From the NCBI GenBank assembly GCA_029932915.1, contig JAOZPE010000027.1, forward strand, positions 1 through 38,945: a stretch of DNA of 38,945 nucleotides, written 5' to 3'. The notes beneath the pieces were generated by a model. That model saw nothing but the letters and a program-made list of their open reading frames with translations. It ran no database searches and was not told where the DNA came from. This document shows positions 3,081 to 28,700 of this stretch, piece after piece. The stretch comes from Candidatus Krumholzibacteriia bacterium. Its GTDB lineage: Bacteria; Krumholzibacteriota; Krumholzibacteriia; JAJRXK01. The position numbers were made by a program, and so were the translations under genes. Every line of letters starts with the position of its first letter. Position 1 is the stretch's first letter.

Positions 3081-3707
3081 CTAGGTCCGGAAGACGGCCT
3101 TCTGCAGGGTCTTGGCGATGATGCGCACGTCGGCGCCGGCCGTGCGCCGTTGCAGGTAGGCGCGGCTGAGCGCGAGCTTGCGCGGCAGGATCTTCTCGCG
3201 GTAGTAGCGCTCGGGATCGTCCACCTGGCGCAAGAGTTCGCTCTCGTTGCGGAAGACGATGCTCGCCGGATCGGTCAGACCGGGCCGTACGCTCAAGACC
3301 TCCCGCTGCACACGATCGTCCAGGCGCACGTAGCGCGGCACCTCCGGCCGCGGCCCGACCAGGCTCATTTCCCCCTTGAGGACGTTGATGAGCTGAGGGA
3401 TCTCGTCGAGCTTGCAGCGGCGTAGCAGCGCGCCAAGAGGGGTCACCCGCGGATCGCGCTCGCCCACGGTCAGCAGACGCGATTGGTAGTGCCGGTCGGT
3501 GCGCATGGTCCGGAATTTGAGGATCTCGAAGAGCCGGCCGTTCCGTCCCACCCGATCCTGACGGAAGAGAACCGGCCCGGGTGAGGACAGCTTCACGGCC
3601 ACCGCGATGGCCAGCCACAGCGGCGCCCCCACAAGGAGGCCCGTCGCGGAGACGGCGATGTCGACGATGCGAGGCACGCGTGAAGGCTCCTCGTCGCACG
3701 GGTACAC
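3081..3707 (-). CDS. Small phosphoglycosyl transferase (PglC/WcaJ catalytic domain type)
   Basis: This is probably an initiating transferase that moves a sugar-1-phosphate from a UDP-sugar to undecaprenyl phosphate at the inner membrane face. At 208 aa it is the minimal monotopic form (PglC size), not the long WbaP type. The N-terminal re-entrant helix (RIVDIAVSATGLLVGAPLW) is followed by SSPGPVLFRQDRVGRNGR, ILKFRTM, LRRCKLDEIPQLINVLKGEM and SLVGPRPE, which are the diagnostic bacterial sugar transferase (PF02397) motifs. The catalytic Asp-Glu pair lies in KLDEIPQ. I used the GTG at 3707. There is no good ribosome site there, and a GTG at 3677 (VPRIVDIAVS) is an alternative. It appears to have its own promoter at 3813-3840 and a leader with a long hairpin. 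Together with the dehydratase and aminotransferase it completes a Pgl-like trio. Confidence 0.92.
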   Translation of the reverse strand: MYPCDEEPSRVPRIVDIAVSATGLLVGAPLWLAIAVAVKLSSPGPVLFRQDRVGRNGRLFEILKFRTMRTDRHYQSRLLTVGERDPRVTPLGALLRRCKLDEIPQLINVLKGEMSLVGPRPEVPRYVRLDDRVQREVLSVRPGLTDPASIVFRNESELLRQVDDPERYYREKILPRKLALSRAYLQRRTAGADVRIIAKTLQKAVFRT

Positions 3708-3812: not shown

Positions 3813-3840
3813 AGTCTATCGTCGGCGGGGGGCTTGTCAA
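3813..3840 (-). promoter_or_regulatory. Sigma70-type promoter for the sugar transferase gene
   Basis: Read on the minus strand, TTGACA (3840-3835) is separated by 16 nt from TAGACT (3818-3813). The -35 box overlaps the stop codon (TGA, 3839-3837) of the upstream aminotransferase. The expected transcription start is near 3806, giving a leader of about 100 nt. The -10 box shares the TAGNNT form of other candidate promoters in this window. Confidence 0.6.
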
Positions 3841-5045
3841 CCTCCAAACCGACCTTCGTCGGAGCGCACAACTGCAAGAGAATCAACCACTTCGTGGATC
3901 ACACGCTCGACCTGCCCGTCGCTCAGGTCGGGATAGATGGGCAGGGACACCTCCTCGGCGAAGAGGGCCTCGGCGTGGGGGAAATCCTCGGGCCGCAGGC
4001 CGTAGTGGTCGCGGTAGTAGGGTTGGCGGTGCAGGGGGATGAAGTGCACGCTGGTGCCGATCTCGCGGCGGGCAAGTTCGGCGATGAGGGCGTCGCGCAG
4101 CGCCCTTCCTCCGGCCACCCGCAGCGGATAGAGATGCCAGGCGTGCAGGTCGCCGGGCTCGGCCTCCGGCGGTGTGGTCAGGCCTTCCACCGGGGCGAAG
4201 GCCTCGCTGTACGCGCGGGCGATCGCCTCGCGCCGGTCGCGGAAGGCGTCGATGCGCTGCAGCTGGCTCAGGCCCAGGGCGGCCATGATGTCGCTCATGT
4301 TGTACTTGTAGCCGGCTTCGACCACTTCGTAGTACCAGCGGTTCGCCTGCCGGTAGCGCTCGAAGACGTCCTGGTTGATGCCGTGCAGGCGCATGGTGCG
4401 CATGCGCAGGGCCATGGCGCCGTCGCGGGTGACCACCATGCCACCCTCGCCGGTGCACAGGGTCTTGGTGGCGTAGAAGGAGAACGCAGTGGCCTGGCCG
4501 AAGCGGCCGATGGGCTTGCCCTTGCGGTGGGTGGGCAGCGCGTGGGCCGCATCGTCGACCAGACCGAGGCCCTCGGCCTCGCAGAATTCCTCGAGCTTCT
4601 CCATGTCGACGGGCAGGCCGCCGTAGTGGACCGGCAGGATGGCCTTCACCCGCTTGCGGTGCTTCTTGTCCAGCGCCTCGTACGCGCGGATGAAGGTGTC
4701 GGCCCCGACCACGAACTCGCCGGGCTCGTTGTCCACCAGCCAGGGGTCGGCGCCCAGGTAACGGGACACCTCGGCCGATGCGGTGAAGGTGAAGCTGGGA
4801 GTGAGCACCAGGTCGCCCGCTGCGACCCCGGCTGCTTCCAGACCCAGGTGCAGGGCCGCCGTACCCGAATTGACCGCGATGCAGTGCAGTTCCTCGGAGC
4901 CGTCCGGCGCGAGGTAGTGGGCGAAGCCCTCCTCGAACTCGCGGCAGCGCGGGCCGGTGGTGACCCAGCCTTCGCGCAGCACGCCGACGACTGCTTCGAT
5001 GTCGTCCTCGTTCAGGGAGGGCCGGTGGAAGGGAATGGCATCCAT
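3837..5045 (-). CDS. DegT/DnrJ/EryC1/StrS-family sugar aminotransferase (PglE-like)
   Basis: This is probably a PLP-dependent aminotransferase that converts a 4-keto-6-deoxy nucleotide sugar to the 4-amino sugar, acting after a PglF-type dehydratase. The ATG at 5045 (MDAIPFHRPSLNEDDIE) is preceded by GAGGTG and gives 402 aa, the usual size; the frame stays open to 5090 without a better start. NSGTAALHLGL (about residues 59-69), TPSFTFTASAE, VDDAAHALPT with Asp165, and SFYATKTLCTGEGGMVVT with the Schiff-base Lys194 are all present. The C-terminal GTSVHFIPLHRQPYYRD is also typical. It lies 63 bp downstream of the flippase gene. That gap holds a 13-bp palindrome, CCGGACGGTCCGG (5065-5077), of unknown use. 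The class is certain; the sugar is inferred from neighbours. Confidence 0.95.
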   Translation of the reverse strand: MDAIPFHRPSLNEDDIEAVVGVLREGWVTTGPRCREFEEGFAHYLAPDGSEELHCIAVNSGTAALHLGLEAAGVAAGDLVLTPSFTFTASAEVSRYLGADPWLVDNEPGEFVVGADTFIRAYEALDKKHRKRVKAILPVHYGGLPVDMEKLEEFCEAEGLGLVDDAAHALPTHRKGKPIGRFGQATAFSFYATKTLCTGEGGMVVTRDGAMALRMRTMRLHGINQDVFERYRQANRWYYEVVEAGYKYNMSDIMAALGLSQLQRIDAFRDRREAIARAYSEAFAPVEGLTTPPEAEPGDLHAWHLYPLRVAGGRALRDALIAELARREIGTSVHFIPLHRQPYYRDHYGLRPEDFPHAEALFAEEVSLPIYPDLSDGQVERVIHEVVDSLAVVRSDEGRFGG

Positions 5046-5108
5046 GGTCTCACCTCGTGTCGGGCCGGACGGTCCGGGGAATCGGGACATCCGATGCAGG
5101 CAGTCTCC

Positions 5109-6490: not shown

Positions 6491-7807
6491 CTACTCCTCG
6501 TAGTACTCCGTGCCCAGATGGGTGATCAGATCCTCGCCCATCCAGTGACGCAGGGTGTTCTTCAGCTTGGTCTGCTGGATGAAGATATCGTGCTCGGGAT
6601 ACAGTCCCGGCGCGGCCTGGGGGCTCTTGAAGTAGAACGAGAGCCACTCCTGGATGCCGCGCTGTCCCGCTCGGGCGGCCAGGTCCATGAACAGGGCCAG
6701 GTCGAGCACGATGGGCGCGGCCAGGATGCTGTCACGGCACAGGAAGTCGATCTTGATCTGCATGGGGTATCCCATCCAGCCGAAGATGTCGATGTTGTCC
6801 CAGCCTTCCTTGTTGTCCCCACGCGGCGGGTAGTAGTTGATGCGCACCTTGTGGTAGAGGTCCTTGTACAGGCTCGGGTACTTGTCCGGCTGCAGGATCG
6901 TATCGAGCACGCTGAGCTTGCTCACTTCCTTGCTCTTGAAGCTGCCCGGATCGTCGAGGACCTCGCCGTCGCGGTTGCCCAGGATGTTCGTGGAGAACCA
7001 CCCGTGCAGACCGAGCATGCGTGCCTTGAAGCCCGGCGCGAGGATGGTCTTCATCAGGGTCTGGCCGGTCTTGAAGTCCTTGCCCGCGATGGGCACGCGG
7101 TTCTCCATGGCCAGCTCCATGATGGCCGGCACGTCGACGGTGAGGTTCGGCGCGCCGTTCGCGAACGGCACCTTCTTCTTCAGCGCCGCGTAGGCGTAGA
7201 TCTGGCTGGGGCTGATGCGCTCGTCGTTGTTGCGCAGGCCCTCCTCGAAGGCGGCCAGGGTCTCGTGGACCTCGCTGGGCTCCTCGTAGACCTCGGTGCT
7301 CGCGCACCACACCATCACCAGGCGGTCGCAGCCGTTCTTCTCCTTGAAGGTGTCCATGTCGGCCATGAGCTGCTCGGCCAGGTCCATCTTGGTCGCGCCG
7401 GTCTTGACGAACTTGCCCTCGAGCTTCTTCACCCACTTCTGGTCGAAGACCGCGGGCATCGCCTGGATGGCCTCCATCTCGGCCTTGAGGGGAAGCAGGT
7501 CCTTCTCCTGGAGCACGCCGGCGGTCATCGCCGCCTCGTAGGCGTTCTCGGAGATGGGATCCCAGCCGCCGAAGACGATGTCGTCCAGATCGGTCAAGGG
7601 CACGAAGTCCTTGATCAGGGGCTGGCGGTCCTCGGTGCGCTTGCCCAGGCGGATGTGACCCATCTGGGTCAGCGTGCCGACCGGTTCGGTCAGGCCGCGG
7701 CGCAGGGCGAAGACGCCCGCGTAGAAGGTGGTGGCCACGGCGCCCATTCCGGGGGTCAGGACTCCGAGTTTGCCCTTGGCCGGGCGGATATCGATGGCTT
7801 TGCTCAT
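6491..7807 (-). CDS. ino1: Inositol-3-phosphate synthase (myo-inositol-1-phosphate synthase)
   Basis: This NAD+-dependent enzyme converts glucose 6-phosphate to 1D-myo-inositol 3-phosphate in the cytoplasm, the committed step to inositol. The protein is 438 aa. It starts with a Rossmann segment (GKLGVLTPGMGAVATTFYAGV) and contains FGGWDPISENAYEAA, VMVWCASTEV and VPIAGKDFKTGQTLMKTILAPG. The near-universal synthase tail KLKNTLRHWMGEDLITHLG is also present. The ATG at 7807 follows a strong ribosome site (GGAGGAAGCGCC). It is divergent from a LysR gene with about 200 bp between starts, and its control region carries a LysR-type double operator. Likely uses are phosphatidylinositol or other inositol lipids, or an inositol phosphate solute; the window does not decide between these. 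Confidence 0.97.
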   Translation of the reverse strand: MSKAIDIRPAKGKLGVLTPGMGAVATTFYAGVFALRRGLTEPVGTLTQMGHIRLGKRTEDRQPLIKDFVPLTDLDDIVFGGWDPISENAYEAAMTAGVLQEKDLLPLKAEMEAIQAMPAVFDQKWVKKLEGKFVKTGATKMDLAEQLMADMDTFKEKNGCDRLVMVWCASTEVYEEPSEVHETLAAFEEGLRNNDERISPSQIYAYAALKKKVPFANGAPNLTVDVPAIMELAMENRVPIAGKDFKTGQTLMKTILAPGFKARMLGLHGWFSTNILGNRDGEVLDDPGSFKSKEVSKLSVLDTILQPDKYPSLYKDLYHKVRINYYPPRGDNKEGWDNIDIFGWMGYPMQIKIDFLCRDSILAAPIVLDLALFMDLAARAGQRGIQEWLSFYFKSPQAAPGLYPEHDIFIQQTKLKNTLRHWMGEDLITHLGTEYYEE

Positions 7808-10113: not shown

Positions 10114-10142
10114 TTGCCGCAGACGCGGCTTGGGCCTAGCCT
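10114..10142 (+). promoter_or_regulatory. Candidate promoter for the DUF212 gene
   Basis: TTGCCG (10114-10119) and TAGCCT (10137-10142) are 17 nt apart. Transcription would start near 10149, about 34 nt before the ATG at 10183, which also supports that start over the longer open frame beginning at 10114. Confidence 0.45.
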
Positions 10143-10182: not shown

Positions 10183-10626
10183 ATGTTCATCGGAAGCATC
10201 GGCTGGCTGTCGTTGGCCAGCATGGCGATCGCCCAGCTCCTCAAGCCCCTCTTCACCCTGCATCGGGAAGGGGTGCGCTCGCTGAGCCGCATCTTCGACA
10301 CCGGCGGCATGCCGAGCAGCCACAGCGCCCTGGTGACCACCCTGACCCTGTGCATCTACCGGGCCGAGGGCGGCCAATCGATCCTCTTCAGCATCTCCCT
10401 GGTCTTCAGCCTGTACTTCATCTTCGAGGCCACCGGCCTGCGCCAGGAGGTGGGCCAACAGGCACGCGTGCTCAACCGCATGCTCGACGAACTGCACGAG
10501 ACCCACCAGGTGGATCGCCGCCGGCTGAAGGAACTGGTGGGCCACACCTGGCAGGAGGTGCTGGTGGGCATCGTGGTGGGTGTGGTGGTGTACCTGCTGG
10601 GCCGCGGCTGGATCCAGGTCGCCTGA
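10183..10626 (+). CDS. Divergent PAP2-family membrane protein (DUF212, YuiD-like)
   Basis: This is a 147-aa inner-membrane protein of the DUF212 family (PF02681), distantly related to PAP2 acid phosphatases; the substrate is unknown. The ATG at 10183 (MFIGSIGWLSLASMAIAQLL) begins directly with the first membrane segment. The family signature runs through the protein: LLKPLFTLHREG, DTGGMPSSHSALVTTL, GLRQEVGQQARVLNRM, and the C-terminal KELVGHTWQEVLVGIVVGV. PSSHS is the conserved PAP2-like core and the GHT...E..VG segment ends the fold. The length equals that of the usual family member. Its place next to glycan genes fits a role in lipid-phosphate turnover, but that is only an inference. Confidence 0.9.
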   Translation: MFIGSIGWLSLASMAIAQLLKPLFTLHREGVRSLSRIFDTGGMPSSHSALVTTLTLCIYRAEGGQSILFSISLVFSLYFIFEATGLRQEVGQQARVLNRMLDELHETHQVDRRRLKELVGHTWQEVLVGIVVGVVVYLLGRGWIQVA

Positions 10627-10926
10627 ACTGCGGCCGGTCCCAGCTCTCCTGGGCCGCCGTGCACCGGGGCTTCCGCGACGGAGGGTCGAGCCTTCCCGGA
10701 CCGTGGCCACCTCCGCATCCCCTGAAACGATTTGGACTTGACGCTCCGCTACTGACGGGGGAATCTGCCGGGGACAAGGCTTCCGCCAGGTCGCCCCGCG
10801 CATGAGGATCTCCGTGCCCCGCCCGGTGGGAGGACGGTCAACCGCCGAGCCCCCCGCGCCGCGCAACCGTGATCGGACAACGGGCTCCCTTCTGTCTGCG
10901 TCATCTCGCTCGCAGGGGAGGATCCG
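10627..10926. other. 300-bp non-coding stretch before the parA-like gene
   Basis: No supported gene lies here. A TTGACG hexamer at 10738-10743 resembles a -35 box, but nothing close to a -10 box is found 16-18 nt downstream (GAATCT at 10761 is poor). CAGGGGAGGATCCG just before 10927 is a strong ribosome site. An imperfect GCGGCC...GGCCGC fold right after the DUF212 stop could be a weak terminator. No tRNA or riboswitch class was recognised. Confidence 0.5.
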
Positions 10927-12015
10927 ATGCGCGTCGTTTCCGTGGCCAACCAGAAGGGCGGCGTGGGCAAGACCACCGTCGCCGTCAATCTCGCGTCCGC
11001 CCTCGCCCGCCTGGGGCGCGACGTCCTGCTCATCGACAACGATCCGCAGGGACACGCCACCGCGGCCCTGGGCGTCGAGCCGGCCCACTTCGGCTTGAGC
11101 ACCCGCGATCTGTACATCGACGGAGGGGTGAAGGTCCAGGATCTGCGGATCGAGATCACCAATGGGCTGCACCTGGTTCCGGCCGACCTCGACCTGAGCA
11201 CGGTCGAACAGGATCTGGCCGACGAACCGCGCAAGCTGCGCCGTCTGCTCGAGCGTCTGGCCATCTCGCAGATGCCCTACGACGTGGTGCTCATCGACAA
11301 CCCGCCCCAGGTGGGGGTTCTCACCTTCAACGCCCTGTTGGCCAGCTCCGAGGTGCTCCTGCCCGTCGACGCCAGCCGCTTCTCCGTCGAGGCGGTCGAA
11401 CGCTTCGAGGCCACCCTGCGCGGCCTGCAGCAGGAGAGGGGGCATCGTCCGCAGTTGCGGATCGTGGCCACGGGCTTCGACCTGAGGACCCGCTACGCCC
11501 GGCGCGTCCTGGAGGACATCGACGCGCTCGAACCGGGGCGGCGGGTGCGCACCCTCATCCGTCCGACGATCCGCCTGAGGGAGGCCGCCCAGGCGGGCCT
11601 TCCCATCGACCGCTTCGATCCGAGCAGCCACGGCGCACAGGACTTCAGCGCCCTGGCGCGCGAGTTCGAGGGCCACGACTGGATCATCCAGCACGACGAA
11701 CTGCTCGAATGGGAGGAGCTGCTGCACGGGCCGGGTCCGCAGAGTCCGGGCGTGCACTTCCGCGCCTACTTCCCCCATGCCCGGAAGGTGTGTGTCACCG
11801 GCGACTTCACCGACTGGTCGGTGGAGGGCATCGACCTGCGGCCGGAGGGCGATGGACACTGGAGGGTCGAGGTGGACATCCCGCCCGGCTGCTACGAGTA
11901 CAAGTTCATCGTCGACGGCGAGTGGACCCCCGATCCGGAGAACCCCGAGCAGATCCGCAACACCTACGGCCAGTTGAACTCGGTGCTGACCGTGCCCGAG
12001 CGGGACGGCCGATGA
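10927..12015 (+). CDS. ParA/MinD-type ATPase fused to an AMPK/CBM48 glycan-binding domain
   Basis: The protein is 362 aa from an ATG behind GGGGAGG. Residues 1 to about 250 form a ParA-type deviant Walker ATPase: NQKGGVGKTT with Lys10 and Lys15, LLIDNDPQGHATAALG, and VVLIDNPPQVG with Asp124. Residues 280-356 match the glycogen-binding domain of AMPK beta/isoamylase early-set (CBM48) proteins. The glycan-contact residues known from AMPK beta all have counterparts: Trp297 (GDFTDWS), Lys326 (YEYKFIVDG), Trp333 (GEWTPDP) and Asn351 (QLNSVLTV). This suggests a cytoplasmic ATPase that binds or senses alpha-glucan-like polysaccharide. It heads the second glycan cluster and lies just before an unknown gene and a Wzz-type gene whose kinase-like tail lacks a P-loop. 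No ParB partner is adjacent, so chromosome or plasmid partition is unlikely. The domain calls are strong; the role is inferred. Confidence 0.93.
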   Translation: MRVVSVANQKGGVGKTTVAVNLASALARLGRDVLLIDNDPQGHATAALGVEPAHFGLSTRDLYIDGGVKVQDLRIEITNGLHLVPADLDLSTVEQDLADEPRKLRRLLERLAISQMPYDVVLIDNPPQVGVLTFNALLASSEVLLPVDASRFSVEAVERFEATLRGLQQERGHRPQLRIVATGFDLRTRYARRVLEDIDALEPGRRVRTLIRPTIRLREAAQAGLPIDRFDPSSHGAQDFSALAREFEGHDWIIQHDELLEWEELLHGPGPQSPGVHFRAYFPHARKVCVTGDFTDWSVEGIDLRPEGDGHWRVEVDIPPGCYEYKFIVDGEWTPDPENPEQIRNTYGQLNSVLTVPERDGR

Positions 12016-12019
12016 GCTG

Positions 12020-12595
12020 ATGGATGAGGCGAGCGGCCATTCGCTTCAGCAGCGCTGGGAACGGGTGGCCCGCAGCTACCTGCGGCCGGCGCCGGTCGGC
12101 GCCTTCCGGCTGGCGGTGGCCGGAGTGGACGATGGGCTGGAGGTGAGCCGTCTCGCCGCCGATCTGCGCCGCTGCGTGGCCGAACTGGGTCTTCCCCTGC
12201 AGCCGAGCCCGCATGCCTCGTGGGTGGAGATCGTCGAGCTCGGAGGTGTCGACGAACGGCGCCTCGGCGAGCTGGCACTGGAGCGCTCCGGCCCGATCGA
12301 TCTGCTGGTGTGGCGCTTCGTGGGAGAGGGGGCGCCCGGTCCCCGGGCCCTCTACCTGATGGGGGTCTTCGCCTGGGCCAAGGCGGCGGCCGAGCTGGCG
12401 TGTGTGGTGGGGGGAAGGCCTACCCTCGATCGCGAGCTGGAGCTGCTGGCCGCGGCCGGCTTGACGACCCCGGTGCATCTGCACCTGCTGCCCCCTTCGC
12501 CCGCCGATGCCGCCGACGCCGCGCTGAAGGGCCTCGTGCAGGCGGCCCTGGCCCGGGCCGACGCGCGCCGCCGTCTCGCCGCCGCCAAGGGTTGA
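12020..12595 (+). CDS. Unknown cytoplasmic protein, 191 aa, between ParA-CBM48 and Wzz genes
   Basis: I do not recognise this family. The ATG at 12020 follows the parA-like stop by 4 bp, so the genes are likely coupled. There is no signal peptide or membrane helix. FRLAVAGVDDGLEVSRLAADLRR (about residues 28-50) has the strand-loop-helix shape of a P-loop ATPase, but the Gly-Lys-Ser/Thr signature is absent. SGPIDLLVWRFVGEG and PVHLHLLPP look like later strands of an alpha/beta fold. It may therefore be a degenerate relative of the ParA/BY-kinase group, but this is a visual guess and needs a structure prediction. The C-terminus is Ala/Arg-rich and helical. Codon use matches its neighbours. Confidence 0.75.
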   Translation: MDEASGHSLQQRWERVARSYLRPAPVGAFRLAVAGVDDGLEVSRLAADLRRCVAELGLPLQPSPHASWVEIVELGGVDERRLGELALERSGPIDLLVWRFVGEGAPGPRALYLMGVFAWAKAAAELACVVGGRPTLDRELELLAAAGLTTPVHLHLLPPSPADAADAALKGLVQAALARADARRRLAAAKG

Positions 12596-12722: not shown

Positions 12723-14489
12723 ATGAATGAAACACCTCTGGCCCCCTACCTCTCCTTCGCCCGAAGGCACCGCTGGTCGTATCTGGCCGCGCTGCTCGTG
12801 TCCGTGCTGGGCACGCTCGCCTATCTGATCGCCTCTCCCACCCTGTATCGAGCGACGGCCACCACCATCGTTCCCTACCGGCAGGTGGAGGCCGATCTGC
12901 GCTTCGGCAACGGCCGCCCCTTCCCCGTCCAGTATGCCTTCGTGGTGAACAACCACCTGGCGGTGCTGCGCAGCGGATCGACGCACCGGGCCATCCTGCA
13001 GGCGCTGGCCCGGGAGGCCCCCGATCTGCTGGAGGAGCTGCAGGCGGGCGCATCGGGAACGGAGGAGGCGCGGCAGGAGCAGCTCCTGCGCGCCCTGCAG
13101 GGCCGACTGCGGGCGAGTTCGCGCGACAAGACCGGACTGCTGCAACTGGAGGCCACCGCCTCCAGCGCCTCGAGGGCGGCCCGGCTGGCGAACCTGTCCC
13201 TGAAGACCTACGCGGTGGTCCAGGACAGCCTGAACAATGCCGCCCTGGTGGAGTGGCTCGGGAAGCTGAAGGAGGAGGAGCAGCAGTGGGCCCGGACCGT
13301 CGCAGAGAAGGAGGAGGCGCTGCGCCGCTTCCGCAGCCGTGAGCGGGCCATCGACCTGGAGAACGAGGGGCGCGCGGTCATCCACGAGATCCTTCGCCTG
13401 CAGGGCCTGCAGGTGCAGGACACGGCCGAACTGGAGAGCCAGAGGGCCCGCCTGAGCGAGCGCAAGGCGCAACTGGCCCGCATCTACGAGGACTTCCAGC
13501 AGAGTCTGAGCAGCGATGCCGCCTCGGTGGCAGGCAGTCTGCGTCAGCAGCTCAGCCTGGACCAGGCCCGCCTGGAGTACCTTGTGGCCTCGGGCATGGC
13601 CACGGACGACCCGCAGATCGAGGCTCTGCGCGCGCGCATCGCGCGGGCCGGGGCCGTGCTGGAGGAACAGGCGTCGACCCTGCCGTCGGATCCGTCGATC
13701 GAGGGTGACCCGGTGCTCCTGGCCGAGGCCTTGTTGAATGCGATCCGGGAGATCGAACCGGAGATCGCCGGTCGCAAGGCGCAGGTCGCCGAGCTCGACA
13801 CGGCCATCGATTCACTGCAGCAGCGCATGGTCGTCCTGCCGACCCTGGCCTCGGCCGAATCGCGCTACGAACAGGAGCTGAAGCTGGCGCGCCAGATCTA
13901 CGAGCTGGTGCAACAGAGGCGGGTGGAGGCGGAGATGATCGCCCACCGCCATGGTTCCCGCCTGGCCATCATCCATCCCGCCGAACCCCCGCAGAGGCCG
14001 GCCTCGCCGCGGCCGCTGCTGGCGATGGTCTCGGCCCTGCTCATCACCCTGCTGCTGGGAACGGTGGCGGCGGTCGGGGTCGAGGCGGTCGATCCGACGG
14101 TCCGCGATGCCCAGGACGCCGGCCGGATCAGCGGATGGACCGTCCTGTGCCGTCCCCGGCGCGAGGGGGGCGGCGTTGCGCCGGAGGTGGCCGCCGCGGT
14201 CGTTGCCCAGCGTCTGGACACCGGTGGGGCGGGCCTGTGGCTGCTCGATCCCGAGGGCGAGCCGCTGGACACCCTGCAGCGGGCGGTCCAGAACCAGTTG
14301 GCCGCCGCTGAGGCGGGAGTGCGCGTGGGTGCGGGTGATCTGGGAGCGTTGCTCGCCGAGTCGACGGCCAAGGCGTGGGTGGTCGTGGTGGTCGTGCACG
14401 TCCGCAGGACTCGGCGCAGCAGTCTGATCGACACCACCCGCCTGCTCCAACAGGGTTCGAACCTGGCGGGCGGCCTCCTGGTCCAGTGA
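12723..14489 (+). CDS. Wzz/GumC-type polysaccharide chain-length protein with a P-loop-less kinase-like tail
   Basis: This 588-aa inner-membrane protein probably controls chain length and export of the polysaccharide. It has a short cytoplasmic start (RRHRWSYLAALLVSVLGTLAYLI, TM1), a Wzz-like segment (LYRATATTIVPYR), and a long periplasmic coiled-coil region (about residues 110-390, with repeated Glu/Arg/Leu heptads). Then come the GNVR-like part (ESRYEQELKLARQIYELVQQ), the Pro-rich AEPPQRPASPRP, and TM2 (LLAMVSALLITLLLGTVAAVG). The last ~120 residues resemble a shortened tyrosine-kinase domain (GLWLLDPEGEPLDTLQ, then AWVVVVVVHVRRTRRSSLID) but have no Walker A motif and no Tyr-rich tail. AAGGAGGG lies about 20 bp before the ATG, and a weak promoter-like TTGGCG-N17-TACAAG lies at 12669-12697. 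It ends in a GTGA overlap with the next gene. Confidence 0.88.
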   Translation: MNETPLAPYLSFARRHRWSYLAALLVSVLGTLAYLIASPTLYRATATTIVPYRQVEADLRFGNGRPFPVQYAFVVNNHLAVLRSGSTHRAILQALAREAPDLLEELQAGASGTEEARQEQLLRALQGRLRASSRDKTGLLQLEATASSASRAARLANLSLKTYAVVQDSLNNAALVEWLGKLKEEEQQWARTVAEKEEALRRFRSRERAIDLENEGRAVIHEILRLQGLQVQDTAELESQRARLSERKAQLARIYEDFQQSLSSDAASVAGSLRQQLSLDQARLEYLVASGMATDDPQIEALRARIARAGAVLEEQASTLPSDPSIEGDPVLLAEALLNAIREIEPEIAGRKAQVAELDTAIDSLQQRMVVLPTLASAESRYEQELKLARQIYELVQQRRVEAEMIAHRHGSRLAIIHPAEPPQRPASPRPLLAMVSALLITLLLGTVAAVGVEAVDPTVRDAQDAGRISGWTVLCRPRREGGGVAPEVAAAVVAQRLDTGGAGLWLLDPEGEPLDTLQRAVQNQLAAAEAGVRVGAGDLGALLAESTAKAWVVVVVVHVRRTRRSSLIDTTRLLQQGSNLAGGLLVQ

Positions 14490-15973
14490 GCACGATCCCC
14501 GAGCGCCGTTCCCTGTCTCTCTTCCTGACGGATCGCCTTCTGGCGCTCAGTTTCTTCCTGTTGCCGTGGATCGGTGTGGGCGTGATGGCGCTGCTCGGCG
14601 GCAGGAGCCCGGGCACGGGAGCCCAGCCCGCGCTCTTGACCGGGGCCCTGGTCCTGTTGTCGGCGCTCTTCCTGGGCCGCCCGCACGTGGACCGCGACGG
14701 CGAGCGCATCCTGGCCGTGTTGAGCTGGACCGTCCTGGGGGCCGCCGCGGTCTGGGGACTGGACGAGATGGGCCTGCAGGGCGACTGGCCCTGGTTGAAG
14801 GCGCTCAAACAGCTCATCCAGTTGGTCTATTTCTTCGCGCTGGCCTCGGTTCCGGCGATGGTGCTCTCGCGTTCCCCGGATCCGGCCGGTGTGCTGTGGC
14901 GATGGGAGAGGGCGGCCAGCGCGGGCATGCTGGTGGCCTCGACGGTGGGCCTGTACCTGGCCGCTGCGTTCTATCTCGATCTGCCCGGCCGCGACGCCCT
15001 GATGCGCGTCTTCAGCTCGAATCCCTCGATCGCCGCCGGCAGCGACGAGCTCTTCCTGGGCCAGCATTTCGTCGGGATCGTCCGGGTGCGCTCGGGGGCG
15101 GCCGAGCCCCTGTACTTCGGCAGCTATCTGCTGTGTGTCCTGCCCGCGACCGCCGTGGCCTGGGTGGCGGCCGGCCGCTGGGGGCGTCTGTGGAGAGGCG
15201 TGGCCCTCATCCTGGGTCTGGCCTCGATGGTCCTCACCTTCAGTCGGGGCGTCTATCTTGGAGCGGCGCTTTTGCTCACGCTCGTGGCGGTGGCGATGGG
15301 GCGGGGTCTGTTGCCGCGGCCCCGTCGCAGGACCGTGCTCGTGGCGGCCGCCATCGGATTGGTCGGAGGAGGGGGCCTGGCGGCCGTGTTCAGCGGGGTC
15401 GCGCTGTGGGAACTTCCTGCGCTGATGCTGCGGCGGATGGCCCAGTCCTTCGCCTCGCACGATCTGAGCAACCTCACCCGCCTGGCCTCCTGGCACGCGG
15501 CGCTCGTCATGTTCCTGCAGCATCCGCTGCAGGGTGCGGGATGGGGAGCCTTCGGGTTCTGGTTCTATCGCATCGAAGGGGCGAGCGAGGCGCTCTTCGC
15601 CTGGCCGGTGACGAACAGTCTCCTCCTGCGGATCCTCGCCGAGACGGGAATGGTGGGCGCGTTGCTTTGGGCCCTGGCCCTGTGGCGTCCACTCGCGCCC
15701 CTGAGGTGGCCGTGGACGGCGGGTGGAGGCGTCGGTGCAGCGGGCGAGACCATGGGCATGTCCGGGCCGCCGGCGCGGGTCGGGGACGGGCCGGCGGTGG
15801 AGGTGAGCCGCCGGGCGCCATCGCTCTCGCCGGCGGTGGGCTTCGTCCTGGCCGCCACGGTGGCGGCGATGTTGTTGCAGTTGATGACCTTCAGCCAGAT
15901 CAACCTGCCCCACCTGTGGCTGGGTGCGGGGGTGGCGGCGGCCGTGGCGCGCTGTTCGACGGGGGAGGGCTGA
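14486..15973 (+). CDS. O-antigen polymerase/ligase-like membrane protein (second Wzy_C protein)
   Basis: This 495-aa polytopic inner-membrane protein probably polymerises or transfers the repeat unit of the block II polysaccharide. The GTG at 14486 overlaps the Wzz stop (GTGA); the longer frame upstream lies inside the Wzz gene. After a cytoplasmic lead (STIPERRSLSLFLTDR) there are about twelve hydrophobic segments. The PF04932 core is clear: VLTFSRGVYLGAALLL, HPLQGAGWGAFGFWFYRIEG, and NSLLLRILAETGMVGALLW. A Gly/Ala/Pro-rich insertion (about residues 410-450) precedes the last membrane pair. It differs clearly from the shorter homologue at 1835-3031, so the window carries two such enzymes, perhaps one polymerase and one ligase. 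Confidence 0.85.
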   Translation: MSTIPERRSLSLFLTDRLLALSFFLLPWIGVGVMALLGGRSPGTGAQPALLTGALVLLSALFLGRPHVDRDGERILAVLSWTVLGAAAVWGLDEMGLQGDWPWLKALKQLIQLVYFFALASVPAMVLSRSPDPAGVLWRWERAASAGMLVASTVGLYLAAAFYLDLPGRDALMRVFSSNPSIAAGSDELFLGQHFVGIVRVRSGAAEPLYFGSYLLCVLPATAVAWVAAGRWGRLWRGVALILGLASMVLTFSRGVYLGAALLLTLVAVAMGRGLLPRPRRRTVLVAAAIGLVGGGGLAAVFSGVALWELPALMLRRMAQSFASHDLSNLTRLASWHAALVMFLQHPLQGAGWGAFGFWFYRIEGASEALFAWPVTNSLLLRILAETGMVGALLWALALWRPLAPLRWPWTAGGGVGAAGETMGMSGPPARVGDGPAVEVSRRAPSLSPAVGFVLAATVAAMLLQLMTFSQINLPHLWLGAGVAAAVARCSTGEG

Positions 15974-15976
15974 GCC

Positions 15977-17140
15977 GTGCGGGTGCTCGTCTCGGCCCTG
16001 CAGGTGGGACCCGGACAGACCGGGGTGGGACGCTTTGCGCGCGACCTCATCGAGAGCCTGTCGAAGCTGCCTGCGTCGCTGCGCCGGCCGCGAGAGCATG
16101 AATTCGTGATCGCAGCACCCCACCCCGAGGCCTTCGGGTTCCTCGACGGGGTCGAGGGCTTCACCGTGGTGCCCATTCCCCTCTTGCGCGAGGACTCGTG
16201 GGGCCGCATGCTGTGCCTGCACACGACGATACCCCGTCTGGGGACGCGTCTGGCTGTGGACCTGGTGCTGGTCCCGAACTACATCGCTCCGCTGTGGGGA
16301 TCGTTCGCCACGGCGGTGGTGGTGCACGACCTCACCTTCGTCCGCTTTCCCGAGACGATGCCCCCTCTGAAGCGGCTGTACTACCGATGGATGGTCGGCC
16401 GCTCGATGCGACGGGCGGACCTGGTCTTCGTGACCACCGAGACCATGGCCCGGGAAGTCGTCGGCTACGAGCCGAGCGCACTGTACAAACTGCGAAGGAT
16501 GCCGGGAGGAGCCTCGACCAGCTTTCTTGATCCAGGCGGCGAAGAGGGAGAGGACGAATCGGCCGGGTGGAAGACCCCCCGGCATGACTTCCTCTTCGTC
16601 GGCACTTTGGAACCCCGGAAGAATCTCGAGCGGCTGTTGGTCGCCCACGGGCGTCTTTGCCGCTTCGATCCCGAGTTCCCGGGTCTGAAGATCGTCGGGG
16701 GCCGGGGTTGGGAGGACGAAGGCATCCGCAGGGCCATGAGGGCCCATCCCGATCCGTCTCGTCTTCACATCCTGGGTTACCTCGACGAGGAGGAGCTTCG
16801 CCGGCAATACGATGAATCGCTGGCCTTGCTCTTCCCCTCGTTGTATGAGGGATTCGGATTGCCCGTGCTGGAGGCCATGGCCCGGGGATGTCCCGTGCTG
16901 AGTTCGCGGGGGATCGCCACAGCCGAGCTGGTGGGCGACGCGGCCCTGCTGGTCGATCCGCTCGATCTAGGGGAATTGGAATGGGCTATGCGACGACTGG
17001 CCACCGATTCCGCCTTGCGCGAGCGCCTTCGCACGGCCGGAAGGCTTCGACTCCGCGCGTTTCGTTGGGAACGCGGGGCTCGACTCACGATGGAAGCCCT
17101 GCTGGGGTGGTGGACCGCCCGGCAGGAGGATCCGAGGTAG
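15977..17140 (+). CDS. GT4-type glycosyltransferase (GT-B fold, retaining)
   Basis: This 387-aa cytoplasmic enzyme probably adds a sugar to the lipid-linked repeat unit. The GTG at 15977 follows GGGGGAGGG by 7 nt and lies 3 bp after the previous stop. The N-terminal acceptor domain begins RVLVSALQVGPGQTGVGRFARDL, where GVGRF is the loop typical of this group. The donor domain shows DFLFVGTLEPRKNLERLLVA, then LHILGYLDEEELRRQY, and ALLFPSLYEGFGLPVLEAMA, which holds the E-x7-E motif (Glu in SLYEGFG and LEAMA). GIATAELVGDAALLVDPLD follows. These are the Glycos_transf_1 (PF00534) hallmarks. Donor and acceptor cannot be told from sequence. It is part of a tight run of genes from Wzz to the deacetylase. 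Confidence 0.94.
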   Translation: MRVLVSALQVGPGQTGVGRFARDLIESLSKLPASLRRPREHEFVIAAPHPEAFGFLDGVEGFTVVPIPLLREDSWGRMLCLHTTIPRLGTRLAVDLVLVPNYIAPLWGSFATAVVVHDLTFVRFPETMPPLKRLYYRWMVGRSMRRADLVFVTTETMAREVVGYEPSALYKLRRMPGGASTSFLDPGGEEGEDESAGWKTPRHDFLFVGTLEPRKNLERLLVAHGRLCRFDPEFPGLKIVGGRGWEDEGIRRAMRAHPDPSRLHILGYLDEEELRRQYDESLALLFPSLYEGFGLPVLEAMARGCPVLSSRGIATAELVGDAALLVDPLDLGELEWAMRRLATDSALRERLRTAGRLRLRAFRWERGARLTMEALLGWWTARQEDPR

Positions 17141-17147
17141 ACGAGGT

Positions 17148-18446
17148 ATGCTCTCCCTTCCGCATCTGCTGGCTCTGATCGTGGCCACCGCCCTCCTGGT
17201 GCACCTGCTCATGCCCGTGGTGCGGCGGATGGGCACGTCCATGGGCTTGGTCGATCATCCCTCGTGGCGCCGGGCGCAGCGCGAGGCGGTTCCCTGCAGC
17301 GGGGGACTGGCCATCTACGCGGCGGTGGTGATCGCGTCCTGGTCATTGGCCTTCTTCGTCGACCTGCCCTTCAGCGCGCACGCCTTCTTCGCGCTGGGCC
17401 TGGCCGGCTTCGGCACCCTGGTGCTCGGCGTCCTCGACGATCGCTTCGGTCTGCACGCGGAGAAGAAGCTGCTGGGGCAGATCGTGGTGGTGACCCTGCC
17501 CATGGCCGCCGGCCTGACCCTGCAGAGGATCACCCTGCCGTGGCTGGGTACGGTCGAGTTCGGGCTCTTCAGCGGACCGATCACCCTCTTCTGGTACCTG
17601 GGATTCATCAACGCCATGAACCTCATCGACGGGCTCGATGGCCTGGCCGGGGGCATCGTGGTGGCGGTCCTGGCCGCGATGGGTCTCACCCTGTACCCGG
17701 CCGACCCGGTGGGGATGCTCTTCGTCGGCGTGTTCGTGGGCGCGGTATTGGGTTTCCTGAGGTCCAATCTCTCCCACCGCCGCATCTTCCTGGGGGACGC
17801 CGGCTCGATGCTGCTGGGACTGTGGCTGGCCGGTCTGAGCCTGGGTCTGGGCGTGCGGACCCCCTCCTTGCCCCTGGTCGTGGTGGTGGCGATGGCCATT
17901 CCCATCCTGGACACGGCGACGACCATCTGGCGCCGCCGCCGCCGTGGCCTGAGCATCTTCCGGGCGGACGACGAGCATCTGCACCATCGCCTGCTGCGTC
18001 TGGGCATGAGCCCGGGACGTGCGACCGCCACCCTGTGGTTCACCACGGTGGCCTTCGCATCCTTGGGCACGGTCATCGACGGACGGCAGAGTGGAGCCAT
18101 CCTGGCCGTCGGAGCGCTGGTGGCCATGGCCATCGAACTGGCCTACACCCTGCCGCGGGAGGGCCGGCCCCGACCGGCCGAGGCGATCGCCTATCTGCTG
18201 GGCCTGCGCGACCAGCTCGGCGACGGCGTGACCCACCGTCAGCTGGCCGAGATCATCGAGATGCCCCGCTTCTCCAGCCGGCCGGCCGCCACCGGCGAGA
18301 AGCGCGGTGGCGTGAACATGCCCGCCGCGAGCGCTGCGCCGTCGTCGCCCCAACCGGATGAGGCCGCGCTGAAGGCGGCCAAGGCCACCGAGGGAGGCGC
18401 GGCGAAGGACGATGTCGTTCTGGCCCTTGGCGACGAGAATCAGTGA
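17148..18446 (+). CDS. Polyprenyl-phosphate sugar-1-phosphate transferase (WecA/MraY family)
   Basis: This is an integral membrane enzyme that probably starts glycan assembly by moving N-acetylhexosamine-1-phosphate (or similar) from a UDP-sugar to undecaprenyl phosphate. The ATG at 17148 follows GAGGTAGACGAGGT. The protein is 432 aa with about eleven membrane segments. Key motifs are GLVDHPSWRR, LGVLDDRFGL (metal-binding Asp pair), NAMNLIDGLDGLAGG, FLGDAGSMLLGLWLAG and the cytoplasmic FRADDEHLHHRLLRLGMSP, which is the WecA-type His motif. A soluble tail of about 70 residues, rich in Ala, Glu and Lys, extends beyond the usual end. It overlaps the methyltransferase gene by 35 nt. The window thus has two initiating enzymes of unrelated families, one in each block. 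Confidence 0.93.
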   Translation: MLSLPHLLALIVATALLVHLLMPVVRRMGTSMGLVDHPSWRRAQREAVPCSGGLAIYAAVVIASWSLAFFVDLPFSAHAFFALGLAGFGTLVLGVLDDRFGLHAEKKLLGQIVVVTLPMAAGLTLQRITLPWLGTVEFGLFSGPITLFWYLGFINAMNLIDGLDGLAGGIVVAVLAAMGLTLYPADPVGMLFVGVFVGAVLGFLRSNLSHRRIFLGDAGSMLLGLWLAGLSLGLGVRTPSLPLVVVVAMAIPILDTATTIWRRRRRGLSIFRADDEHLHHRLLRLGMSPGRATATLWFTTVAFASLGTVIDGRQSGAILAVGALVAMAIELAYTLPREGRPRPAEAIAYLLGLRDQLGDGVTHRQLAEIIEMPRFSSRPAATGEKRGGVNMPAASAAPSSPQPDEAALKAAKATEGGAAKDDVVLALGDENQ

Positions 18447-20510: not shown

Positions 20511-20821
20511 TCGTTATCTCATAACAACTTAGCAACAGTGCCCCTTGACTGCCCATGGCTTCATGGGGTAGAATCGCTGATACGATCTCTTCGGACAAGC
20601 GCAGCTGTGTGATGGACAATCTGGGATCGGTCCGCATTTTTCGTCCTGGTCGACGACCCCATGGTTCGGGCTCCCGGCTGTCGCTGTTGAGGCGGCGGAA
20701 CAACGGGCCTTCCGGGTCGACAGAGATGAACACGCCGGGACCGTTTTTCCCCCCAAGCGCAACTCTTGCCTCGGCGCGGAGTCTTCCCCGTACCGGGCTG
20801 CTCACCACGAGGAGGAAGAAC
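20511..20821 (+). promoter_or_regulatory. 311-bp control region and long leader of the first C25 protease gene
   Basis: From left to right it holds an inverted repeat GTTAT-CTC-ATAAC (20513-20525), a -35 TTGACT (20545-20550), an 18-nt spacer and a -10 TAGAAT (20569-20574). Transcription would start near 20581, leaving a leader of about 240 nt. The spacer contains a perfect palindrome CCCATG-GCTT-CATGGG (20552-20567). The leader has several possible stems, including CGGTCC with a later GGACCG that is followed by TTTTT, but I match it to no known riboswitch class. GAGGAGGAAGAAC is the ribosome site at the end. Confidence 0.65.
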
Positions 20822-23800
20822 ATGGACCCCGTTCGCCGGGTTTCATCTCGTCTCGTTCTGGTTTCCCTTCTGATTCTCAGCCTGGCTCCTGTCGCTGCTC
20901 ATGCCGCCGGAATCGATCTGGCGGTTCGTTTCGATCCGCAACAGGTGCAGATCCATCGGGTCGACGGGCAGGTGAGCTATCGGCTCCCCGATACCGTCCC
21001 GCTGTATGCGGACGGCGCACCCGACCTTCCCTTCACCAACTGGAAGGTGGTGGTGCCGCAGGGCATGACCATCGAGAAGGCGGAGATCGTCGACGCCCAG
21101 TGGAAGACGGTGGATCGTCCGGCGGCCTTGCGACTGGCCGGCAAGCTCGTGAGCGACGAGGGGCAGCTCGTCCAGGACACCATGGGCGGACTGTCCTCCG
21201 ATTACGCTCCGGGGCAGGTGTTCCCTGCCCAGGCGGTGCGCAGTCTGGGGGTGTCCATCCTGCAGGGCTACCGGATCGGAGAGGTGCAGATCTTCCCCAT
21301 GCGGGTGAACGACGACGGCTCGGTGCAGGTGCTGCGCTCGGGACGGCTGCATCTGACGCTTGCTCCCAAGGAGATCGACGGTGTGGTGGTGCGGAAGGTG
21401 GCATGGCCGGGTCTGGCCGAGGAGGCGGCCCAGCGGGTGAAGAAGCTGGTGAGGAATCCCGAGCTGGTGGAGAGTTGCGCGCCGCCGGCGGGGATCCTGC
21501 CCGAGCTGATGAACTCCTCCTCGTACAAGTCACCGCATCCGGAACCGGGTGACGAGGTCTTCACCGGGGGACGCCTGGACTACGTCATCGTCACCACACC
21601 GGAGATGGAGGCGGAGTTCCAGCGTCTGGCCGACGACCACATCGCGCACGGTCTGCGCACGAAGGTCGTCACCACCGACTGGATCGTGGCGAACTACCGC
21701 AATGGAAGCGACCTGCAGGAGACGATCCGTTACTTCTTCCAGGAAGCCTATGAGAAGTGGGGCCTTCGCTACGCCCTTCTCGGCGGCGACGCGGAGATCA
21801 TCGCTCCGCGCTATGCCCGCAGCTATTGGTATCCACAGAACGGCTTCACCGACATTCCGTCCGATCTGTACTTCTGCGCGCTCGACGGCAACTGGAACGC
21901 CAACGGCAACGGGATCTTCGGGGAGGCCTACCAGTCCTTCCTCAAGACCGGCGACGACCAGGACATGGTGGCGGAGATCGCCCTCGGCCGCGCTCCGGTG
22001 AAGGATGCCCTGGAGGCGCAGATCTTCGTCGACAAGTGCCTGAGCTACCAGAACCCGACCGACGGGTCGTATCTGGGCCGCGCGCTGTTCATGAGTGAGG
22101 TGCTCTTCCCGTCGGACTGGGATGGCACATCCACTCCGAACCTCGATGGAGCCACCTACAGCGAGGACATCATCTTCAACAAGATCATCTCACCGGGCAA
22201 TCTCATCGACAGCTACCGCCTGTACGAGAACTACACCGCCTATCCGTACACGGTGCAGGAGACCAAGCAGGCATGTATGGATTCGCTGTCGACGGGGAAC
22301 TTCGGTCTGGTGAACCACGTCGGGCACGGCTTCTACTACAACATGAGCGTCGGGGACGGGAACATCTTCACCTCCGACGTGATGAGCCTGACCAACGCTC
22401 CCAACTACTTCGTCCTGTACGCGCTGAACTGCTCGTCGGGCGCGTTCGACTTCGACTGTCTGCTGGAGAGCTACATCCAACTGGGAAGCGGGGGAAGCGT
22501 CGCCAGTCTGGGCTCGGCCCGGGCCGCATTCCCCTCGACGGCGGACAACTACCAGCAGGAGTTCTACCGTCAGATCTTCGTCGAGGGAAACGTCCGCCTC
22601 GGCGATGCGATGAACGGCAGCCGCGACGCCTTCGTGCCGCCGGCGCTGAACGCGGAGGGCTTCGACCGCTGGACCCACTTCTGCTACACCCTGCTGGGCG
22701 ACCCCGCCCTGCGCGTGTGGCGCAAGGCCCCGGTCGCGGCCGAGGTGGCCATGCCGGCCACCGTCCCGCTGGGAACGGACTCGATCATGGTGACCGTCAG
22801 CGTGGGGGGAGCCCCGGTGGACAGCGCGCAGGTGACCCTGCACAAGAGCGGTGACGTGTGGGCGACGGGCATGACCGACAGCAACGGCGAGCTCGCCCTG
22901 CCCTTCCGCCCCAGCAGCGAAGGCCTGATCGACGTGCTGGTCTCCGGCCAGAGTCTGCAGCCCTGGCAGGGAACCATCGTGGTGGGCCCGGCGGTGGGCG
23001 CCAATATGGTGGCCCGCGCGCTGAGCGTCGATGACGGACCTTCGGGCGACGGAAGGGCCGACTCCGGAGAGACCATCGATTGGTACTTCGAATTCGAGAA
23101 CAACGGCGATGCCTCCGCACCGGTGGACATCTCTGCCATCCTGCGTCCGGTCGACGCGGTAGGGGCCACTGTCCTGGACTCGACGATCGTCGTGGGCACG
23201 GTGGCGGTGGGCGCTCCGGTAGCACCGGCCGATCCGGTGACCCTCCAGCTCGACCCGACCATCGCCGACGGATCGACGCTGAGCTTCGACATGGAGTGCA
23301 CCGACGGGATCGACAACTGGACGCAGCGGGTGGAGTTGCGCGTGGTGGCTCCCGAACCGCAGGTGGTCCGGCTCGTGGTGGACGATTCCAACACCGGCAA
23401 CGGCGACGGGGTCATCCAGGCGGACGAGCCGGTCGAACTGCATCTGGAGGTGAAGAACTACGGCGACGGCGAGCTGGTGGGACTCACCGGTCAGATCTAC
23501 GTGTCGACCAATGTCACCGCGTTCAACGACGCCGATTCGTGGCCGGACCTGGGGCTCAAGGAGAGCGCCTACGGGACGACCCCGTTCGTGGTGAGCGAGA
23601 GCGACGTGACGGTGGAGAACTGGATGTACGTGGTGTTGACCGACGCCAAGGGACATCTGTGGAAGCACTGGATGGAGCTGCGCGAGCCTCTGCCGCCGGC
23701 CGATCCCATTCCCAACACCGATCTGGGGCCGACCACGGTGGCCCTGGGGTGGGAGCCGACGCCGCAGGACCACATCTTCGGCTATCGCGTGTACCGCAGC

Positions 23801-25696: not shown

Positions 25697-25786
25697 ACGC
25701 TCGGGCCTGGAATCTCCCGCCTGCGGCCGGAGAGGACGGGCCGGGCTTCGGTGGCTCCCAATGAAGCGTCCACCACCGAGGTGACG

Positions 25787-28700
25787 ATGATCCCGCCCAA
25801 CTGCGGTCCAGACCCGAGGACATCGCGGCATCCTTCCGTAACGCCCTTCCCGTCGTGGTCCTTGTCTGGCCGGCGCCTGCTTGCGGGGCTGCTGTTGTCG
25901 GCGGCCGCGCTGGCCACGGCCGGTCTCCACGGGCCGATTGCCTCGACGGGCGACGATCTGCGGGGATGGACCGCTGCACTGACCGATGCGCTGGTCCCAC
26001 CGGCGCAGGCGCGCGAGGCCGAGGCCGGTCTGCTCGTCCGCATTCCCCTTCACATCGAAGCTGCCGAACTGTCCGCCCGGCTCGCACAGGGAGGGGTGGA
26101 GGTCCATCTGCCCGGCTACCGGCTCGACCCGGACGATCCGCGGCCCCTGCGGCTGATGCGCGATCTGGCCGTGGTCATCCCCGCCGGGACCCAGGTGCGC
26201 GCGGTGCGTCTGGAAGGTGGCGCGACGGTGGTGGTGGACGCGGTCATGCCCGAGGACGAGAGCGGGGCGGCCGCAGTGGGACCGGATGGAGACGGCCCGG
26301 GCGCGTGGAGCCGGGGGGACGGCTGGTGGCACGGTGTGCACCTGGCCTTCGTCCGCGTCCGTCCGCTGGGATCGCGTGGCGGCCAGGCGGTGCTGCGCGA
26401 GGGCTGTGATCTGGTGGTGGAACTGGAGCGCTCGGGGGCCACACCGGTGGTGGCCCGACGGCTTCGAGCGGACGCCGAGCAGAGGCTCCATGTCCGCCGG
26501 CTGCTGGAGGCGGCGGTGGCCAATCCCGGCGAGCTGCTGCAGTTTGCTCCGGAGCTCATGGATCCCTGGCTCGCCCGGGCGCAAGCCGGCGGCGGCCTGG
26601 AGCCGGCGGCGGGAGAGCTGGCAGGTGGCGTAGACGGGGCGGAAGGGCTCCTGTCGGAGAAGACTCCGAGCCTGGGAAGCGGACCCTACCGCTACCTGGT
26701 GATCTGTCCGTCCGAGCTGGCCGCGGCCTTCGAGCCCCTGGCCGATTTCCGAGAGAGCCAGGGCCTGCCCTCGCTGGTGGTCACCCTGGACGAGATCCGC
26801 GCTGTCTACCGCGAGGGACTGGATCTGGCCGAGACCATCCGCCTGTACCTGCGGGACGCCTACGAGAAATGGGGGGTCGACTACGTCCTCCTCGGCGGCG
26901 ACACCGATGTCCTTCCCACCCGGCACGTGATCTCCACCTACTACCCGTCGGGCGGGGAGACGGAGATCCCGACCGATTGGTACTTCGCCGGGCTCGATGG
27001 GAACTGGAACGCCGACGGCGACGCCATCTTCGGCGAGGCCTACACCAGCGGCGCCGATCCCGGGGACTACTGCGACTTCATTCCCGAACTGGCCGTGGGC
27101 CGGGCGCCGGTGTCCACCGCACAGGAAGCGGCGGACTTCGTTCGCAAGGTGATGGCCTACGAGCGGGCCGAGGGAAGGGCGCGCTTCAACCGTGTGCTCT
27201 TCGCCAGCGAGGTGCTCTTCCCGCAGGACTGGCAACCGGGCGATACCATCACCCGCGACGGCGCCATCGTCAGCGAGGGTCTGTGGAACACCATCACCAC
27301 CGCTTCGGGTGGATCGTTCGAGGCGACCCGGCGTTATCAGAATTACACCGACTACCCGGGGGCGGTGGAGGAGACCAAGGCCGCGGTCCTCGCCGATCTC
27401 GAGTCGGGCGCGTACGGGTTGTTCCACCACGTCGGACACGGCTTCTACTACAACATGAGCGTGGGCGACAAGAACATCTTCGTGCAGGACGCCGACGGGC
27501 TGACCAACGGCAGTGACACCTTCGTGCTGATGGCACTCAACTGCGATTCGGCCGCCTTCGACTTCGACTGTCTCCTCGAACGCTTCCTTCGCAATCCCGA
27601 TGGGGGTTCGGTGGCTTCCATCGGTTCCGCCAGGGCGGCCTTCGACATCACCACCAACCAATACCAGCAGGCGCTGTACAAGGTGATCTTCGAGGCCCGG
27701 CGGCAGCGCCTGGGCGACGCCATCGTCGAGAGCCGCCGGGGTTTCGCCCAGAACACCTTCTACAACACCATCGACCGGTGGACCCAGCTCGTCTACGCCC
27801 TGCTGGGCGATCCGGCGATGCGGGTGTGGACCGCCACGCCCCGTTCGGTGACGGTCGATGCTCCCAGTTCGGTGACCACCGGCTCGGGTCCGGTGACGGT
27901 GGGCGTGCACGACAGTGGAGGGGCTCCGCTCGATTCGGTGGCGGTGGTGCTGCGCGCCGAGGGGCTTCCGCTGGTGGTGGAATGGACCGGCGCCGACGGC
28001 AGCGCCGTTCTCGATCTGCCGACCGATGTCGCGCGGAGCTGGACCCTGACGGTGAATGGCCGCGACATCCTGCCCTACCAGGGCAGCCTGGCGGTGGTGG
28101 CCGGCTCGGCGGCGCAGTTGTCGGTGGCCGGCTTCTCCGTGGACGACAGCGCCGGCAACGGGAACGGGCGCATCGAAGCCGGAGAGAGGGTCGCCCTGAC
28201 CGCGTTGGTGGTCAACGGCGGGGCCAGTGGGGTGTCCGGAGGCACCCTTCACCTGGAGTGCGACGATCCCTGGCTGAGTGTGATCGATGCGGAGACGGGT
28301 TTCCCTCCGGTGGGTGGCGGAGAACAGGCCACGGCCACCGGCAGCTTCACCGTGGAGGTGGCCGCCGACGTGCCCGACGCCCACTGGGCCACTCTGACGG
28401 TGAGCCTGGACGATGGGAATGGAGGGGTGTGGACCGATGAGGAGAGGCTGCCGATCGAGAACGGAGAAGTGGAGATCGTCGCCCTCGAGCTGGACGACGG
28501 CGCGGGCAACGGCGACGGCGTGGTCGACCCGGGCGAGGCGGTCGCCCTGCGCTTCACCCTGAAGAACTACGGCGCCGCCTCCATCGCGGGAGTGACGGGT
28601 GAGCTGATCTCGCTCGATCCGGCGGCCAGCGTCAGCGACGGAGCGGCGAGCTGGGGTCCGCTGGACGGGCCGCTCAGCACCGCGGTCAACGATGACGATC

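Follow-up and report, generated by a model that had tools for sequence, protein, structure and literature searches.

The window, that is the whole stretch of 38,945 nucleotides analysed (contig JAOZPE010000027.1 of assembly GCA_029932915.1 from a Candidatus Krumholzibacteriia bacterium), contains a gene in which a ParA-type ATPase domain is joined to a CBM48 glycan-binding domain. The gene consists of one unbroken open reading frame and is listed together with its neighbours in Table 1. The reading frame of the DUF212 gene opens at 10114, with the ATG at 10183 preferred as start codon.

Table 1. Features at the ParA-CBM48 locus; positions refer to the window.
Feature	Position	Strand	Remarks
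Bacterial sugar transferase	3084-3707	-	
DegT aminotransferase	3840-5090	-	
myo-Inositol-1-phosphate synthase	6494-7807	-	
DUF212 (divergent PAP2-like) membrane protein gene	10183-10626	+	Pfam DUF212 1.8e-36
Shine-Dalgarno-like GGGGAGG	10915-10921	+	before ATG of fusion gene, read in sequence
ParA-CBM48 fusion gene	10927-12015	+	362 aa
ParA ATPase domain, residues 1-250	10927-11676	+	NQKGGVGKTT, D37/D39, D124, R187, R216
Linker, residues 251-274	11677-11748	+	low model confidence; conserved W...LHGP motif at 262-269
AMPK-beta-type CBM48, residues 285-359	11779-12003	+	W297, K326, W333, N351
Gene 2, putative partner	12020-12595	+	191 aa (short member); starts 4 bases past fusion stop
Wzz/chain-length-determinant-like protein	12723-14489	+	NCBIfam TIGR03007 4.7e-22, below its cut-off
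Wzy_C (O-antigen ligase/polymerase family) gene	14375-15973	+	Pfam Wzy_C 1.2e-12; f1/f5 neighbour
GT4 glycosyltransferase	15977-17140	+	f1/f5 neighbour
WecA-like phosphoglycosyl transferase (PGT)	17148-18446	+	f1/f5 neighbour
C25 (gingipain-type) peptidase, T9SS sorting tail	20555-25633	+	homologue downstream of fusion in many loci
C25 peptidase, second of tandem	25751-30754		

Pfam assigned residues 1-177 to AAA_31 (3.5e-40), and a sequence search of the PDB matched the N-terminal part with T. thermophilus Soj (5e-37). By Foldseek, the ATPase fold matched Soj/ParA structures, and FleN-FleQ structures were also among the matches. The deviant Walker A motif at residues 8-17 contains the KGGxGKT core with its signature lysine, accompanied by the switch and Walker B aspartates characteristic of ParA/MinD proteins. 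K10, K15, D37, D39, Q41 and D124 were found in all 44 homologues compared, while the P-loop of most relatives reads NQKGGCGKTT, the valine of the source-genome copy being the exception. The conserved basic DNA-contact residues of the nucleoid-binding ParA subgroup are present as R187 (kept in 41/44 homologues) and R216 (Arg or Lys in 43/44). Based on the alignment and on the Soj numbering, these presumably correspond to Soj R189/R218 and Caulobacter R195/R224. The two positions align with arginines required by Soj and Caulobacter ParA to bind DNA (PMC7229837). The NCBIfam ParA_partition score of the protein was below its cut-off, yet ParA was the best-scoring of the NCBIfam profiles compared. 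Judged by its sequence, the protein is a soluble ParA-family ATPase complete in ATP-binding and nucleoid-DNA-binding residues. The preliminary description had proposed an intact deviant Walker ATPase, and the complete ParA domain with motif residues invariant among homologues confirms this.

The C-terminal tail was identified by Pfam as AMPK1_CBM (residues 285-359, 6.1e-15) with 55.6 bits, twice the curated cut-off of 26.8, and it also matched CBM_48 (5.5e-9). Its sequence matches in the PDB were CBMs of AMPK beta1/beta2, with the AMPK beta1 CBM 1z0m at 4e-8, or 3.7e-9 when the tail alone served as query. The alignment with 1z0m placed W297, K326, W333 and N351 on W100, K126, W133 and N150 of AMPK beta, which we take to be glucan contacts. 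The earlier claim that all four contact residues are matched therefore stands for the source protein, and three of them, W297, W333 and N351, showed no variation across 44-45 homologues. Position 326 is mostly arginine in the relatives (Arg in 40, Lys in 4, Gln in 1). Conservation of the CBM48 equals that of the ATPase (mean entropy 1.37 versus 1.43 in 44 homologues). Three of the four contact positions fall among the 14 invariant CBM columns, an enrichment (hypergeometric p ~0.014) which is supportive but modest, because fold residues are conserved too. An AlphaFold2 model calculated with 20 sequences (mean pLDDT 78, pTM 0.64) revealed separate confident domains connected by a poorly predicted linker. 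As the linker appears disordered in this model, nothing seems to pin the predicted glucan groove against the ATPase.

Both domains were matched by Pfam and by PDB sequence search within a single reading frame, which bears out the proposed join of ParA and CBM48. A spurious reading frame or chance was ruled out, as most relatives encode the full-length protein, with 37-61% identity. The fusion is thus real and well beyond what chance would produce. Whole or as pieces at contig ends, it was detected in 62 of 80 Candidatus Krumholzibacteriota genomes covering seven of eight families (designated f1 to f7); whole fusions occurred in 57 genomes and pieces cut by contig ends in five more. Some genomes carry no copy, notably all four of genus g33; in genome G037, the absence is explained by a contig end beside gene 2. 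In a phylogenetic tree, the ParA domains of the fusions formed one clade (support 85/99, long branches) whose branching follows the families; the fusion was therefore inherited vertically. The single-contig genome G015 contains two fusions, L079 (C1:1.79 Mb) and L078 (C1:0.96 Mb), each followed by gene 2, and these two copies are a duplication within the lineage.

Outside the phylum, no fusion was found among the five candidates scored per genome in 388 genomes of one other phylum. The CBM part beside a ParA gave no match in plasmid records, phage records held no match covering 80% of the fusion query and viral contigs no fusion match. The scan of the genome collection relied on short exact peptides, which miss distant forms, so restriction of the fusion to the phylum is not proven. 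The open-licence papers searched contained nothing relevant on ParA with CBM48, a glycogen-binding domain or AMPK1_CBM, or on positioning of glycogen granules, in agreement with the former statement that no described protein system of this architecture was known.

The gene neighbourhood of the fusion differs between families. In most loci of the class, the fusion is immediately preceded by a DUF212 homologue in the same orientation. In the f1 and f5 loci, genes for Wzy_C, GT4, WecA-like PGT and a methyltransferase are located downstream, whereas the neighbours in f2, f3, f4, f6 and f7 differ from this export-type block: in f3, f7 and genome G027 of f6, an oligopeptide-binding protein is encoded upstream and a matrixin/fn3 protein downstream. 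The Wzz-like gene occurs near the fusion in the source genome only and is absent from the other f1/f5 loci. The placement at the head of a polysaccharide locus, as previously suggested, consequently holds for f1 and f5 and fails for the other five of the seven fusion-carrying families, and tabulation of the neighbours retained the export-type block in f1/f5 without a general Wzz neighbour. A polysaccharide context is thus confined locally to two of the families. Likewise, the fusion gene does not stand directly before Wzz, as gene 2 intervenes.

Several further genes were observed in these loci. Of the two C25 peptidases arranged in tandem in the window, the first scored higher than the cut-off for a T9SS type A sorting tail. 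A small gene of ~110 aa with the conserved pattern PYxxLFxVSVG...IRV and no Pfam match follows gene 2 in 25 loci (e.g. L086:5560-5904). In the f5 loci L062-L073, gene 2 is followed by a protein of ~190 aa (cluster c17) with a signal-like N-terminus, a hydrophobic C-terminal end and no Pfam match. The three genes listed first in Table 1 lie upstream of the fusion in opposite orientation.

Gene 2, which follows the fusion directly in nearly all loci (genome G012 seems to lack it) and has been passed on vertically along with it, is the best candidate for a partner protein. It evolves fast, with a mean column identity of 33%. The motif of its N-terminal helix is VARSYL in the source genome and, for example, LRDISHLFLS or HHISSIAHLFL in homologues, usually preceded by basic residues. 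Partners of A/D-ATPases are described as binding by way of a charged stretch at the N-terminus (PMC10241942), and in Myxococcus xanthus ParB this contact is made by a short N-terminal helix that has a hydrophobic face and a single arginine (PMC12462528). The N-terminus of gene 2 resembled the ParB peptide of the host by eye, though not significantly by shuffling (median p 0.45), and the likeness is therefore an analogy only. The gene 2 profile matched the strand-loop-helix of the fusion P-loop over the P-loop stretch only (E 2e-4, probability 46), the P-loop residues themselves being gone; weak matches were obtained with other ParA paralogues, and one member matched CbiA (1.4e-4, below the CbiA cut-off). 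Structure prediction for gene 2 was confident (pTM 0.79), and Foldseek found no PDB match to the model below 1e-3. Gene 2 probably encodes a ParA-like pseudo-ATPase partner, this fold assignment being weak.

Glycogen genes are present in the source genome as a cluster on contig C30, comprising GH57, GlgA, a GH57 branching enzyme and phosphorylase. With this pathway, an alpha-glucan ligand is expected in the cytosol, where ParA is located. In G012, the genes that come after the fusion, in the orientation of the fusion gene itself, encode a stand-alone CBM48, two starch-synthase-like glycosyltransferases, a GH57 branching enzyme, an alpha-glucan phosphorylase and a further GH57 protein. The assumption that family f6 is devoid of glycogen synthesis was thus wrong for G012. 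In G015, gene 2 and the small gene come after the second fusion copy, and next to them lie a stand-alone CBM48 and a glycosyltransferase. According to the tree, this link to glycogen genes in G012 and G015 arose in a single evolutionary event, and most fusions do not lie beside glycogen genes. Co-occurrence of the fusion with such genes is uninformative, because they are nearly universal in the phylum. It counts against a glycogen role that g33 and others kept GlgA and usually phosphorylase without having the fusion, and that in G015, with its two fusions, neither a branching enzyme nor a DUF3417 phosphorylase was recognised.

AMPK1_CBM is strongly expanded in Krumholzibacteriota (L120, L126, L139 and others), often as tandem repeats in large secreted-looking proteins which include an alpha-amylase-like protein, a possible outer-membrane protein and lipoprotein-like ones. 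Outside the G012/G015 loci, the other CBM48 proteins of the phylum that were examined look secreted or surface-borne.

Among known systems, chromosomal ParA/Soj proteins of ParABS are the best solved relatives of the fusion and share with it the fold, the deviant Walker A and Walker B motifs and the DNA-binding arginines. The fusion differs by its C-terminal CBM48 and by its gene context: no parB was found among its conserved neighbours, and the canonical parA-parB pair of the source genome is located elsewhere (G000:C68), which rules out a canonical partition gene. Homologues standing beside parB/parS rather than glycan genes had been named as an observation that would count against a glycan-related role, and here parB adjoins a different parA. 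McdA/McdB and other cargo ParAs (ParC, PpfA, PomZ) are, like the fusion, non-chromosomal ParA paralogues with a dedicated partner gene adjoining, which in our case is putative, whereas the fusion carries a cargo-type binding domain on the ATPase itself. This domain shares its contact residues with the AMPK-beta CBM48 but sits on an ATPase, not on a kinase scaffold or, as in the plant glucan phosphatases SEX4/LSF1, on a phosphatase. BcsQ of cellulose secretion and the BY-kinases (Wzc/CpsD) are also ParA/MinD-superfamily ATPases in polysaccharide loci, but they have no CBM48, and the genomic setting matches only in f1/f5. Orthology with either was ruled out by the NCBIfam cut-offs (eps_fam 35.7 versus 108 bits, Wzc 26.6 versus 1068, BcsQ equivalog 79.8 versus 157.85); the broad Pfam CBP_BcsQ model was passed.

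Taken together, we tentatively favour, as somewhat short of an even chance, a nucleoid-binding ParA switch with cytosolic alpha-glucan as its cargo or signal, which would position glycogen or glycogen enzymes. The ATP-bound dimer would sit on the nucleoid, as suggested by the conserved DNA-contact arginines and the Soj/ParA fold match, and its CBM48 would bind cytosolic alpha-glucan (glycogen), as suggested by a CBM conserved like the ATPase, by the three invariant contacts and by a host which makes alpha-glucan. Gene 2 would act as the dedicated partner whose N-terminal helix docks on the dimer and triggers ATP hydrolysis, while its body would fix specificity; near-constant adjacency and the conserved N-terminal motif with basic residues point to this role. 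By repeatedly binding the nucleoid and the glucan and letting go again, the system would distribute glycogen particles or the enzymes on them along the nucleoid and divide them between daughter cells. Such a mode of action would resemble that of McdA/McdB for carboxysomes, except that the cargo tag would be part of the ATPase itself. The parts of this scheme read directly from the genomes are domain make-up, conservation, inheritance and gene order. Its most specific form, in which glycogen is a ParA cargo shared between daughters through the built-in glycan-binding domain and an ATPase-dead ParA relative is the activator, is doubtful though conceivable.

The same domain and residue evidence would fit a sensor of glycogen status, whose CBM48 reports alpha-glucan to an ATPase switch controlling transcription, an enzyme or the cell cycle without any positioning. 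AMPK-beta acting on AMPK and FleN/FlhG acting on FleQ are precedents; ParA-family proteins can be regulators, FleN-FleQ structures were among the fold matches, and variable neighbours are expected for a global regulator. We regard this alternative as unlikely, given DNA-binding arginines conserved like those of nucleoid-binding ParAs and the absence of a conserved transcription factor beside the fusion. The invariance of three glucan contacts, together with a fourth position that is nearly always basic, also makes it rather improbable that the CBM48 has turned into a protein-binding module for positioning of a protein complex, since these residues could be lost once sugar binding was no longer required. 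Such a complex could involve the DUF212 protein, gene 2 or the small third gene, the first two being the most constant neighbours and the third being conserved in 25 loci.

The conserved f1/f5 block and the weak BcsQ and eps_fam profile matches would be accounted for if the protein spatially organised the synthesis or export of surface polysaccharide, in the manner of BcsQ or BY-kinases, and if its CBM48 recognised a glycan intermediate in the cytosol. The block is absent from the other five families, these profiles score far below their cut-offs with ParA as the best, and polymer assembly in Wzy systems is periplasmic, beyond the reach of a cytosolic CBM; we therefore assign a low probability to this explanation. 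The role in glycan export considered plausible earlier from the Wzz neighbour is not supported, and a Wzz-coupled regulator was rejected, as Wzz adjoins the fusion in the source genome only and export-type genes in f1/f5 only. The proposal that the ATPase positions or reports on glycogen fares better than export: the glycogen cluster of the host and the lineage in which the fusion heads such a cluster are consistent with what the protein would do.

ParA/MinD ATPases are the main positioning machines of bacteria, and to our knowledge all their cargoes are DNA or protein assemblies. A ParA with a glycogen-binding domain would add a storage carbohydrate to this list or would reveal a direct bacterial glycogen-sensing switch, and the question how bacteria divide their glycogen can be addressed experimentally through a single small protein. 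For a phylum that is represented almost entirely by MAGs, a conserved and distinctive cell-biology gene is gained, and Krumholzibacteriota may be able to place the glycogen inside their cells actively or to sense it.
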